Positions 49,212-54,996 of a stretch of 64,000 bases of DNA are shown here, piece by piece; within the stretch, counting starts at the first letter, position 1, and each line of letters opens with the position of its first letter. The position numbers and the translations under genes are program-made. The notes under the pieces are model-generated. The model worked only from the letters and a program-made list of their open reading frames with translations, did no database searches and was not told the origin of the DNA. Source of the stretch: Acidobacteriota bacterium (GTDB taxonomy: Bacteria > Acidobacteriota > Terriglobia > Bryobacterales > Bryobacteraceae); contig JAPKYZ010000021.1 of NCBI GenBank assembly GCA_026394055.1, positions 62,001-126,000 on the forward strand. The letters are read 5' to 3'.

Positions 49212-50108
49212 ATGGCAAACCTCGGATTTCTTGGATTGGGCATCATGGGCTACCCGATGGCCCGGCACTTGTTGGAAGCGGGACACCGGGTGGCGTTGTG
49301 GTCACACACCGGCTCCAAGGCGGTGGAACTGGCGGCCAAAGGCGACGGCATCGCCTGCGCTACGCCCGCCGAAGTGGGCGCTCAGGCGGACTGCATCTTC
49401 CTGTGCGTGGGCGACACCGCGATGTCGGAACAGGTGATCCTGGGGCCGAACGGAATTGTCGAGGGCGCCAAGCCCGGCACCGTCATCGTCGACGCCTCCA
49501 CCGTGTCCCCTTCGGCCAGCCGGGCAGTGTCGGCAGCGGTCGCGGCTAAGGGATTCCATTTTCTGGATGCGCCCTGCACCGGCTCCAAACCGGGCGCTGA
49601 GGGCGGCCGGCTGACTTTTATGGTCGGCGGCGACAAAGAGGTGTTCGAGCGCGTGAAGCCCTACTTCGAACCGATGGGCAAAAATCTCTACTACTGCGGC
49701 GGGTCAGGCTTGGGCCTACAGGCGAAACTGACGCAAAACCTGATTCTTTCCAACATCATGCAGGCGTTCAACGAAGGCCTGGTGCTGGCCACCAAGGGCG
49801 GCGTGCAGCCGGAATTGATGCTGGACATCCTGGAAAACTCGGCCGCCAAGAGCGGTCTGGTGGCCTTCAAAGCGCCCTACATCTTCCGCCGCGACTTCTC
49901 CACCAATTTTTCCGTAAAGTGGATGCACAAGGACATCGGGCTGATGCTGGACAGTGGAAAAGAGCTGGATGTGCCCCTTCCGCTCACCTCTTTGACCCAG
50001 CAGATGTTCCGCGCGGCGATCGCCAAAGGCTATGGCGATGACGATATCTGTAGCACCATCAAGGTGTTAGAGGAGATCGTGGGCGTCGAGGTGAAGGGGA
50101 CAACGTAA
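49212..50108 (+). CDS. 3-hydroxyisobutyrate dehydrogenase-family NAD(P)-dependent reductase
   Basis: The 298-residue protein starts MANLGFLGLGIMGYPMARHL, the family dinucleotide motif (GLGIMGxPMA). It continues with FLDAPCTGSKPGAEGGRLTF, MVGGDKEVF and a conserved Lys region (GSGLGLQAKLTQNLILSNIM), where the Lys is the expected catalytic residue. The helical C-terminal domain is complete (KWMHKDIGLMLDSGKELDVP). It could act on 3-hydroxyisobutyrate, tartronate semialdehyde, succinic semialdehyde or a similar beta-hydroxyacid; the substrate-binding motif DxPCTGSKPGAEGG does not settle which. Single-gene unit; its stop is followed by the RNA locus. Confidence 0.9.
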   Translation: MANLGFLGLGIMGYPMARHLLEAGHRVALWSHTGSKAVELAAKGDGIACATPAEVGAQADCIFLCVGDTAMSEQVILGPNGIVEGAKPGTVIVDASTVSPSASRAVSAAVAAKGFHFLDAPCTGSKPGAEGGRLTFMVGGDKEVFERVKPYFEPMGKNLYYCGGSGLGLQAKLTQNLILSNIMQAFNEGLVLATKGGVQPELMLDILENSAAKSGLVAFKAPYIFRRDFSTNFSVKWMHKDIGLMLDSGKELDVPLPLTSLTQQMFRAAIAKGYGDDDICSTIKVLEEIVGVEVKGTT

Positions 50109-50135
50109 ATTTACAGAAATCTGAAAAGATTTCTC

Positions 50136-50164
50136 TTGCAATTCCAAAATCCATATCCTAATAT
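50136..50164 (+). promoter_or_regulatory. Strong sigma-70-like promoter of the RNA locus
   Basis: TTGCAA (50136-50141) and TAATAT (50159-50164) are separated by exactly 17 bases. A 7-bp inverted repeat, ATTCCAA (50141-50147) and TTGGAAT (50164-50170), flanks the spacer and -10 box. The predicted start near 50171 coincides with the 5' end of a long structured RNA. No protein gene follows on this strand for two kilobases. Confidence 0.75.
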
Positions 50165-50170
50165 TGGAAT

Positions 50171-50348
50171 CAAGCCGGGGAGGCAACTCCCACCAAAGCG
50201 AGACTAACCTCATAAGACCCCTGAAGCAAACCTTCCCGGCGCCCCTCGGGGTTTGGGTCTTAAACCAAAGAGGATAGTCTGATCTCGACCTTGAACGGCT
50301 TCCGTCGCTGAGCTGAACTGCTCGTTGATTCTCTCCCTCCCTGGTTCA
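50171..50348 (+). ncRNA. Structured RNA candidate with 6S RNA-like architecture
   Basis: The locus lies in a 431-base gene-free stretch directly after a near-consensus promoter. The RNA can close on itself: bases 50173-50183 pair with 50336-50346 (11 bp, two G-U). Inside lies a long rod: AGACTA/TAGTCT (50201-50206, 50275-50280), CCTC/GAGG, TAAGACCC/GGGTCTTA (50213-50220, 50255-50262), AAACC/GGTTT and a GC cap. The 3' side holds two small hairpins (ACGG/CCGT near 50295-50305 and GAGC/GCTC at 50310-50323). Closing stem, large central open region, terminal rod and a length near 178 nt match 6S RNA, which binds sigma-70 RNA polymerase. A local GGGAG-GCAA-CTCCC hairpin (50178-50191) is an alternative fold. 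Class assignment is inference; a structured RNA is well supported. Confidence 0.6.
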
Positions 50349-50382
50349 CTGTGCACCGTCGCCCGCGGTAATGCTCCGTCTA

Positions 50383-50419
50383 CAAAAAGAAATTGCCGGC
50401 GAGCGCGAAGCCCACCGGC
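50383..50419 (-). terminator. Terminator after PEP-CTERM gene A
   Basis: On the minus strand a 7-bp GC stem (plus positions 50395-50401 and 50413-50419, one G-T pair) is followed by AATTTCTTTTTG. It lies 121 bases past the stop and resembles the terminator of the neighbouring PEP-CTERM gene in sequence. The rest of the stretch from 50420 to 50539 shows no gene. Confidence 0.75.
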
Positions 50420-50539
50420 TGTTCAATCTGCTTGCTGATGCCTTTTTGTTTTGTCTGGCGGGTCCTTGGGAGAGGCAATGCGGTTTCCGCCAGCTTGGAT
50501 GGAGAGGCTCCCTGATCCAAGATCCAATCTTCAATTGCC

Positions 50540-51211
50540 CTACCGGCTGAGGCGCACCCGGCGCGCCATCGCGATCAGGGCGATGGCTCCACTGCCGAAC
50601 ATGGCCATCGAGCCCGGTTCCGGTGTCGGGTTCTCGATATCGCCTTCCACGCGGAGGGCGTAGCGGAGACCAATGGGCCGGACCGTCCAGGGATCCGAGA
50701 CACTGCCGGTCTTAACGGCCGTGATGCCCTGATCGCCGGTGTTGTTGAAGGCCCAGCTGCCGTTGTAGGTGTCAAAGCCAGAGGCGATAACCCAGATGTC
50801 GCTGTTGGCGGCGATATAGTTGGGGGGAAAGTCGAACCACACGGTCGGCGTTGTGGTGCCCACGTAGAAGCCGACACTGCGAATGTTGTTGCCAGGCACG
50901 CCGCCATTGTCGGTCCAAGCCTGGAGGAGGAGCTGGCCAAAACCCTCTTGGAAAACACCGACGTTTTGCACAACACCGACGGCCACCGTGATCTTCTGCA
51001 GAACAACGGGCGAGCTGCCCACGTTGATCTTCACGGCCTCACGCAATGGATGGTCAAGCAGGGTCACGTCAGGACCTTGCACGGCACGCCCGAAGGCGGC
51101 GGTCGAGTCACCTGGGCCGAAGTTGTCAAAAATGATCGCGCCTTGGGCGGCCAAGGAGCCTAGCGCGAAAGCTGTAGCAAAAGCTCGGACTGCATGAGCT
51201 GTGAGTTTCAT
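50540..51211 (-). CDS. PEP-CTERM sorting-domain protein A
   Basis: The ATG at 51211 (MKLTAHAVRAFATAFALGSL) has AGAGGA ahead and opens a signal peptide. The 223-residue protein begins its mature part with AAQGAIIFDNFGPGDSTAAF and ends with the sorting signal PEPGSMAMFGSGAIALIAMA and RRVRLSR. The PEP motif, hydrophobic helix and Arg cluster mark a substrate of exosortase, which anchors or releases the protein at the cell surface. The middle is beta-rich (WVIASGFDTYNGSWAFNNTG) like choice-of-anchor domains. It is a tandem paralogue of the gene at 51444. No exosortase gene is in the window. Confidence 0.9.
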   Translation of the reverse strand: MKLTAHAVRAFATAFALGSLAAQGAIIFDNFGPGDSTAAFGRAVQGPDVTLLDHPLREAVKINVGSSPVVLQKITVAVGVVQNVGVFQEGFGQLLLQAWTDNGGVPGNNIRSVGFYVGTTTPTVWFDFPPNYIAANSDIWVIASGFDTYNGSWAFNNTGDQGITAVKTGSVSDPWTVRPIGLRYALRVEGDIENPTPEPGSMAMFGSGAIALIAMARRVRLSR

Positions 51212-51284
51212 AATGTTCCTCTTTTGGAATTTCGGATTCTTTTGGTTTCCGCTTTTCCGCACGGTGGTGCCGTGCGTTCGAATT

Positions 51285-51353
51285 GGAGTATGCCGTCCGA
51301 TGGGCTGCTGAGTCCTTGCCAAACTCTTCCAAAGCCCTTACAGTTTGCTTCGC
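51285..51353 (+). repeat. Copy of the regulator promoter block upstream of PEP-CTERM gene A
   Basis: About 69 bases match 52158-52226, with shared segments GATGGGC, GTCCTTGCC, CTTCCAAAG and CTTACA. On the plus strand both keep TTGCC(A/G), a 17-base spacer and TACA(A/G)T (here 51316-51321 and 51339-51344). At this copy no gene follows on the plus strand, so it looks like a relic of the tandem duplication, or it serves the PEP-CTERM gene on the minus strand. Confidence 0.7.
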
Positions 51354-51376
51354 GGCGCCTAGTGCTGTTGCAGCCA

Positions 51377-51408
51377 TAAAAAATGCCGGTGAGCGTGGGC
51401 CCACCGGC
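51377..51408 (-). terminator. Rho-independent terminator after PEP-CTERM gene B
   Basis: On the minus strand the perfect 7-bp stem GCCGGTG/CACCGGC (plus positions 51385-51391 and 51402-51408, 10-base loop) is followed by ATTTTTTAT. It stands 36 bases after the stop of gene B and ahead of gene A, so the two genes are separate transcription units. Confidence 0.85.
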
Positions 51409-51443
51409 TTTGCGAATCCGCTGCTGGAAGTACTTCGCCAGCC

Positions 51444-52082
51444 TTAACGGGCCAGCCGCCACTTCCGGGCGAGCACGATGAGGGCGATGGCTCCGCCGCC
51501 CAACTGGAGCATCGAGCTCGGCTCCGGCACCGGATTCACAAAACGTCCTTCCAGGCGGATAGCGTAGCGGTCTTCAATGGGCCGGACATTCCAGGGATTG
51601 CCGTTGGTGCGGCCAGCCGTGATGCCCTGGTCACCGGTGCTGTTGAAGGCCCAGCTGCCGTCAAAGGTATCGGTCGCGTCGATGCTGAACCAGTAGTCCG
51701 TGTTGGCCGAGAGCAGCATCTTGGGCGACGTGCTGACCGTGGGCAGAGCCATGCCGGGTACAACGCCGCCAAACAGGAGGGCGCCGGGCGAGCCGGCAGC
51801 ATCGCTGCGAATGCCGATGACCAGGATGCCATCACTACCTTGGATGGAAGATACCGCCATCGTGACCATGGTCAGAAACACGGGCGAGGCACCGATCCGG
51901 ATCTTCACCGCTTGATCGACATCGCCGATGGTCCCTACGTCGGGACCTTGCACGAGTCGGCCTCCTGGGGCCGTGGCATCGCCCGGCCCGAAGTTGTCAA
52001 AAATAATGGCGGCTTGGGCCGCGCTGGTTCCGATGATGGTTAGTGCGGCGAGAGCGCGCACTGTTTGAAGGGTAGATTTCAT
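51444..52082 (-). CDS. PEP-CTERM sorting-domain protein B
   Basis: The 212-residue protein has AGAGGAG ahead of its ATG, a signal peptide (MKSTLQTVRALAALTIIGTS) and the same mature start as gene A (AIIFDNFGPGDATAPGGR). The end is PEPSSMLQLGGGAIALIVLA, then RKWRLAR, a full PEP-CTERM signal. The middle part (TDYWFSIDATDTFDGSWAFN) aligns with gene A (STGDQGIT versus NTGDQGIT), so the pair arose by duplication. Surface location after exosortase processing is the family expectation; function is not known. It is divergent from the winged-helix/TPR regulator gene, which may control it. Confidence 0.9.
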   Translation of the reverse strand: MKSTLQTVRALAALTIIGTSAAQAAIIFDNFGPGDATAPGGRLVQGPDVGTIGDVDQAVKIRIGASPVFLTMVTMAVSSIQGSDGILVIGIRSDAAGSPGALLFGGVVPGMALPTVSTSPKMLLSANTDYWFSIDATDTFDGSWAFNSTGDQGITAGRTNGNPWNVRPIEDRYAIRLEGRFVNPVPEPSSMLQLGGGAIALIVLARKWRLAR

Positions 52083-53811: not shown

Positions 53812-54996
53812 ATGAAGCAGATTACTATCCTCGGCTCCACGGGGTCGATCGGCTGCAGTACGCTCGACGTCGTGCGCCAGTGGCGAGACCGGTTTGGCGT
53901 CTTCGCACTGGTCGCGGGCCGGAATATTGAGCTCCTGGCCGCGCAGGTGGAAGAGTTCCGGCCGCAGGTGGTGGTGACGGCGGACGAGGCGGGACGCGAT
54001 GCGCTGGCGGCCAAGCTTTCCGGTTCCGCGCACCAGCCGGAGCTGCTCTACGGCGCCCAGGCGCGGGTGCAGGCCTCCATCGCCCCGGAAGTCGGCTTTC
54101 TCATGTCGGCCATCGTCGGCGTGGCGGGCCTGGAAGCCACCTATGAGGCGATCAAGCGCGGGCTCCCGATTGGCTTAGCCAACAAGGAAGTCCTGGTAGC
54201 CAGCGGTGAGCTGGTGATGGCCGCCGTGAAGTCCGCTGGCACGGAGTTGCTGCCGGTCGACAGCGAACACAACGGCGCCCACCAATGCCTGCGCGCCGGG
54301 CGGCGCAATGAAGTCACCAAGTTAATCCTCACCGCTTCCGGCGGCCCCTTCCGCAAGACTCCGGCGGCAGATCTGGCGACCGTAACGCCGGCGCAGGCAC
54401 TGAACCACCCTACCTGGAAAATGGGCCAGCGGATCACCATTGATTCCGCCACGTTGATGAATAAGGGCTTTGAGGTGATCGAAGCCTGCTGGCTCTTTGA
54501 TTTTCCCGCCGGGGAAGTGGAAGTGGTGGTCCACCCGCAATCGAGCATCCACGCCATGGTGGAGTACAACGACGGCAGCGTGATCGCGCAGATTTGCGCC
54601 ACTGACATGCGGATGCCCATCCAGTACGCGCTCACTTACCCGGAGCGCGCCACCGCCCCGGTGCCGCGCATGGACTGGCAGCAGGCCCGCCAGTGGGAGT
54701 TCTATCCCCCTGATTTTGAAAAGTTTCCGTTGCTCGGGCTGGCCTACCAGGCCGTCCGGCAGGGCGGCTCAGCGGGCTGCACCCTGAATGCCGCCGACGA
54801 GATTGCGGTGGAAGCATTTTTGCAGGGCCACATCCCCTTCCCCGGCATCTGGGAAACCGTGGCGGAAACTTTGTCCCGAGTACCTGTATCGAACCCGCGC
54901 AGTGTGGCCGAAGTACTAGAGATAGACCGCCGCTCGCGCGAGATCGCCCGTTCCATAGTGGCGAAACGCGCAACCGGAACCGCCCGCCGCGCGTAG
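53812..54996 (+). CDS. dxr: 1-deoxy-D-xylulose 5-phosphate reductoisomerase
   Basis: The 394-residue enzyme converts DXP to MEP with NADPH in the non-mevalonate isoprenoid pathway. The start (MKQITILGSTGSIGCSTLDV) has GAGAGG ahead and contains the NADPH-binding GSTGSIG. Metal and substrate motifs are present: GLANKEVLVASGE, LLPVDSEHNGAHQCL, LTASGGPFRKT, TWKMGQRITIDSATLMNKGF and EVVVHPQSSIHAMVEYNDGS. It is followed 53 bases later by rseP on the same strand, a conserved pairing in many bacteria (dxr-rseP). Length is normal. Confidence 0.97.
   Translation: MKQITILGSTGSIGCSTLDVVRQWRDRFGVFALVAGRNIELLAAQVEEFRPQVVVTADEAGRDALAAKLSGSAHQPELLYGAQARVQASIAPEVGFLMSAIVGVAGLEATYEAIKRGLPIGLANKEVLVASGELVMAAVKSAGTELLPVDSEHNGAHQCLRAGRRNEVTKLILTASGGPFRKTPAADLATVTPAQALNHPTWKMGQRITIDSATLMNKGFEVIEACWLFDFPAGEVEVVVHPQSSIHAMVEYNDGSVIAQICATDMRMPIQYALTYPERATAPVPRMDWQQARQWEFYPPDFEKFPLLGLAYQAVRQGGSAGCTLNAADEIAVEAFLQGHIPFPGIWETVAETLSRVPVSNPRSVAEVLEIDRRSREIARSIVAKRATGTARRA

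Follow-up and report, generated by a model that had tools for sequence, protein, structure and literature searches.

The locus and its conserved RNA core

The window analysed here is a 64,000-nucleotide stretch of an Acidobacteriota genome. Between the gene of a 3-hydroxyisobutyrate dehydrogenase family protein and a convergent gene for a PEP-CTERM protein (50540-51322), it carries a promoter followed by a conserved structured segment (Table 1). As the original prediction had stated, no protein gene lies directly downstream on the plus strand, the convergent gene being the next. The latter is the first of two adjacent genes for similar proteins on the minus strand (50540-52082), of which the first protein contains the PEP-CTERM motif.

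Table 1 Features of the RNA locus (window positions unless another locus is named)
Feature	Position	Strand	Remarks
3-Hydroxyisobutyrate dehydrogenase family protein, upstream neighbour	49212-50108	+	PF03446 and PF14833
-35 element TTGCAA	50136-50141	+	TTG[CA] in 95/95 related loci
-10 element TAATAT	50159-50164	+	TAnnAT in most relatives, 17-nt spacing
Conserved discriminator/start region TGGAATCAA	50165-50173	+	TTGGAA kept in most relatives
Conserved RNA core, 73 nt	50172-50244	+	Covariance-model match G000:C67:112172-112244
P1 stem, 5' strand GCCGGGGAGG	50174-50183	+	Pairs with 50231-50240
Loop box A UCCCACCAAAGCGAGACUAACCUC	50188-50211	+	Nearly invariant in alignments A1 and A2; predicted mostly unpaired
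Loop box B AAGACCCCUGAAGCA	50214-50228	+	Nearly invariant in alignments A1 and A2
P1 stem, 3' strand CCUUCCCGGC	50231-50240	+	Conserved partner of GCCGGGGAGG
Putative 3' end	50241-50262	+	Short GCCC-CUCG-GGGU hairpin, then UUGGGUCUUA
Tandem RNA copies (two or three, own promoters)	L077:2686-3723, L085:2913-3587, L145:2121-2479

The TTGCAA-N17-TAATAT promoter of the original prediction was found exactly as described and is kept in relatives. The best-scoring TATAAT-like hexamer stood 17 nt from the -35 element in 87 of the 95 related loci, with TATTAT, TAATAT, TAGTAT, TAAGAT, TATAAT and others as variants of the -10 element. Judged by the distance from this element, transcription is predicted to start at about 50171-50172. 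The sequence TTGGAA (50164-50169), which separates the -10 box from the start, was about as conserved in the family as the promoter boxes themselves; such conservation is unusual in a discriminator and perhaps marks a regulatory site.

From the predicted start, the conserved part of the transcript extends to 50244 and comprises a 10-bp stem (P1) enclosing a 47-nt, A/C-rich and nearly invariant loop. In its own genome the core scored 100 bits with covariance model R1; with R2, a broader model, the score was 94.6 bits. The aligned relatives share the layout AAGCCGGGGAGG-CAACUCCCACCAAAGCGAGACUAACCUC-(variable A/U-rich linker)-AAAGACCCCUGAAGCA-(0-4 nt)-CCUCCCCGGCGCCC. P1 was paired in 99.6% of cells in 30 sequences, with double changes at three pairs. 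In 96 model-found copies (82 distinct) it was paired in 99.8% of cells, with double changes in 6 of the 10 pairs (32 cells); this second alignment is biased towards the structure because it was fitted to the model, while alignment A1 was built without the model. The covariation score of P1 was reached by none of 500 shuffles, sliding the partner strand by 1-3 columns brought pairing down to 50-68%, and the stem pairs had a mean predicted probability of 0.99. The sequence of the stem varies with compensation; the loop hardly varies, with about 40 of its bases nearly invariant. Its composition is 40% A and 35% C (75% A+C), it folds no better than shuffled loops, and no covarying helix was found inside it in the alignment of relatives. 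A peptide gene was ruled out, because ATG, GTG and TTG start codons are absent from the core in the window and the linkers differ in length by single bases among relatives, that is, by non-triplet changes.

The original prediction had outlined a longer RNA of 178 nt, closed by an 11-bp helix between its two ends. Folding of the segment 50171-50348 alone does give this structure as the optimum (predicted free energy -61.2 kcal/mol, z -2.2; 6 of 200 shuffles did as well), a property of the single sequence; the closed structure is not formed in the two sampled congeners (L004 and L005). The 5' strand GCCGGGGAGG pairs with CCUUCCCGGC at 50231-50240 and not with the distal segment near 50336-50346. 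DNA similarity to the two congeners ends at 50276 and 50269, and column conservation is near zero (background) about 10 nt past 50244. Because similarity stops so early and the congener segments lack the closing helix, the 178-nt outline was rejected and only its start was retained.

The 3' end probably falls within 50241-50262, the exact end being an estimate, which would give an RNA gene of about 75-95 bases. A terminator-like hairpin with a U-rich stretch was present at 40 of the 95 loci, against 12 expected. In some members of family f3, a strong hairpin and then T-runs lie directly 3' of the core; the 3' end is less clear in the family to which the present genome belongs.

Distribution and genomic neighbourhood

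When 61 genomes (the present one and 60 relatives) were searched with the DNA sequence, the region from about the -35 box to about 50245 was matched in every sampled family member, with 79-96% identity in the relatives. Model R1 matched 60 of 250 genomes of the class, all in the same order, and in a phylum sample of 247 the two that belong to the family were the only ones it matched. With model R2, matches were obtained in 143 of 150 genomes of Bryobacterales, an order name taken from named contigs, and in 111 of 399 class genomes, all within the order. No match outside the order was thus seen in the class samples with either model; as the large covariance scans used stricter filters, a very diverged relative elsewhere may have been missed. 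Some of the seven genomes of the order without a match may reflect gaps in draft assemblies. Among the matches listed from a loop-pattern scan of named contigs were metagenome-assembled genomes (MAGs) of Bryobacterales, Bryobacteraceae, Candidatus Solibacter and Sulfopaludibacter, together with some records that bear only broader or different names.

The RNA is usually present in one copy per genome. Two or three tandem copies, each with its own -35 and -10 elements, were found in G244, L085 and L145, and one of the L145 copies has compensated stem changes (GCCGGAGAGG/CCUCUCCGGC). G534 has a second, diverged copy (C70:89167-89228, model positions 8-67) in addition to the normal one; it may be a paralogue that serves another function.

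The genes around the RNA vary by lineage and include dxr, accD, purA, a cyclase-like gene or convergent genes. Many family members have the 3-hydroxyisobutyrate dehydrogenase-like gene first, then the RNA and then the isoprenoid-pathway gene dxr, which lies 120-260 nt downstream of the RNA. In family f3, the neighbours can be unrelated (a cyclase-like gene, a rhodanese-like gene with purA, or accD, all named from sequence). The position of dxr after the RNA in many family genomes, and a closing stem and conserved core that look aptamer-like, would suit a cis-acting leader, that is, a riboswitch or attenuator of dxr. In the present genome, however, dxr lies at 53812-54969 (C67:115812-116969), 3.6 kb from the RNA rather than directly downstream; a TPR regulator and two genes on the minus strand separate them. 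The two similar minus-strand genes and the TPR regulator are missing between the RNA and dxr in the congener G002. Moreover, dxr is divergent from the RNA in G010 and lies elsewhere, unlinked to it, in G040 and G054, so that in several genomes the RNA is not upstream of and co-oriented with dxr, and the tandem copies have promoters of their own. Because the neighbours change and dxr is distant, divergent or unlinked in several genomes, we regard the RNA as an independent gene; a dxr leader is rejected for the present genome and very unlikely in general. The conserved promoter, the varying neighbours and the promoters of the tandem copies likewise point, at the level of sequence, to an independent transcription unit.

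Relation to known RNA families

6S RNA, a structured RNA from a stand-alone gene, binds sigma-70 RNA polymerase and serves as a template for product RNAs. The original prediction had offered the locus as either 6S RNA or an abundant, new small RNA of the lineage. The long, closed single-sequence fold of the right size spoke for 6S RNA; the two RNAs are alike in being structured and in having a separate gene and promoter. The Rfam 6S covariance model (RF00013), however, had no match at the locus, either at the gathering cut-off or up to an E-value of 10, and the best match in the genome lies on another contig (C85:7079-7206, minus strand, 35.8 bits, E 2.5e-5), aligned over the 6S central region. 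Nor is the 6S shape conserved, with its length of 160-200 nt, its closing stem, the central bubble and the terminal rod: only about 73 nt are kept, these contain no rod with a central bubble, and the distal stem is absent in congeners. The locus thus differs from 6S RNA in size, structure and sequence, and with a separate 6S-like gene in the same genome the chance that it is the 6S RNA of the lineage is next to negligible. The second half of the prediction, a new small RNA of the lineage, is strongly supported by the order-wide conservation. The sequence at C85:7079-7206 (L001:1501-1628, minus strand) falls below the Rfam 6S cut-off (35.8 versus 46.4 bits) and is likely the true 6S RNA of this genome. 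Among 20 relatives searched, 14 had 6S matches at other loci, two of them above the curated cut-off, and full-length 6S matches occur in relatives; the Rfam 6S model seems to under-call this lineage.

A scan of the whole window with Rfam matched only a tRNA, and a permissive scan of 49900-50600 gave no plausible family; a match to eiav_FSE at 50177-50237 (23.1 bits, far under the cut-off of 40) was taken as a chance resemblance. Acido-1 (RF01686), which resembles the present RNA in being a noncoding RNA motif reported from Acidobacteria, had no match at the locus and, in five genomes of the order, none that passed the cut-off. A weak Acido-1 match under the cut-off (27.8 bits, E 0.007) was seen in G040 at C1:5167377-5167437.

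C-rich single-stranded seed motifs are known from the LhrC-type and RsaE-type sRNAs of Firmicutes, and LhrC, too, occurs in several copies, as the present RNA does in its tandem arrays; sequence, structure and lineage differ from those of the Bryobacterales RNA. In the alpha-r14 family, an ultraconserved anti-Shine-Dalgarno motif lies in unpaired regions while the stems are otherwise variable (PMC10746234). With alpha-r14/NfeR1 of the alpha-proteobacteria and its CCUCCUCCC motif, the Bryobacterales RNA shares a stand-alone gene, a sigma-70 promoter and a conserved C-rich unpaired motif among changing stems (PMC10746234). The two differ in that alpha-r14 has three hairpins with an identical motif, whereas the present RNA has one stem and one large loop with different C-rich boxes; the CCUCCUCCC motif is absent from its core, and alpha-r14, from another phylum, has no sequence match to it.

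Our literature search found no paper on small RNAs of Bryobacterales. 'Solibacter-1', a motif from Solibacter usitatus, is listed as unsubmitted by Weinberg et al. (2010; PMC2864571). The present RNA may be this motif, though the RNA is usually single-copy. Judged by its sequence, the RNA is a new family without a match in Rfam 15, of a kind that is already known.

Possible modes of action

The existence of the RNA gene is well supported by the comparison of genomes. With moderate confidence, we consider that the segment from 50171 to about 50262 encodes a stand-alone, sigma-70-transcribed noncoding RNA of an order-wide family that probably acts in trans through base pairs formed by its loop. 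In such a mechanism, transcription would be driven by the sigma-70-type promoter and P1 would hold the loop open, so that the C-rich loop boxes (UCCCACC, UAACCUC and AGACCCCUGAA) could pair with G-rich, Shine-Dalgarno-like segments near the start codons of several mRNAs and lower their translation, possibly with the assistance of Hfq. Being near-invariant and predicted to be mostly unpaired, the loop would offer an accessible conserved seed, and a gene for Hfq is present in the genome.

A search for pairing of the loop with 412 predicted start regions, drawn from 464 kb of the genome, yielded no target. Overall, the predicted pairing did not exceed that of shuffled loops, and contiguous pairing runs in these regions were not in excess, except for a single run of 14 bp, for which the expected number was about 0.1. 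This run, the best single site, precedes a cytochrome-like gene and overlaps the stop codon of the gene before it; one congener retains the site, and in the other it is weakened. The loop preferred start regions over gene interiors somewhat more than shuffled loops did, with 7 of 120 shuffles as extreme, in a comparison in which the choice of starts was guided by Shine-Dalgarno strength. Because the target tests gave no excess, base pairing in trans rests on the anatomy (an open, C-rich, nearly invariant loop, a compensating stem, the promoter, the tandem copies and Hfq) and on the analogy with alpha-r14.

The invariant loop could equally be a binding site for a protein or a ligand. A lineage-specific housekeeping RNA that binds or sequesters a protein at its loop would be consistent with a loop kept across the order, with the usual single copy and conserved promoter, and with the negative or weak outcome of the pairing test. 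Against it, the C/A-rich loop is predicted to lack structure and contains no covarying internal helix, and no partner protein is known; we consider such an RNA rather unlikely. A stand-alone aptamer, whose invariant loop would fold round a metabolite or ion, appears quite improbable; it might involve a pseudoknot between AAGACCC in loop box B and the complementary GGGUCUU of the tail (50255-50261). In the first 40-60 nt 3' of the core, complementarity to the loop exceeded that of shuffled flanks, often through these two motifs. The mean difference over the first 40 nt was -2.0 kcal/mol (t -6.7), a statistic inflated by the relatedness of the genomes, which are not independent. The tail motif is missing from several family loci and was not seen in the second main family; the pseudoknot is suggestive but not universal, and box B hardly varies. 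If the 47-nt loop of this order-wide RNA did bind a protein or ligand, which we entertain tentatively as a doubtful case, the RNA would be a new functional class of noncoding RNA rather than another antisense sRNA.

Bryobacterales, an order of soil bacteria comprising Solibacter and its relatives, turn up in many environmental genome collections. Nearly all genomes of the order carry the RNA, which the alignment makes it possible to annotate and which gives experimenters a direct starting point for work on post-transcriptional control in a poorly known phylum.
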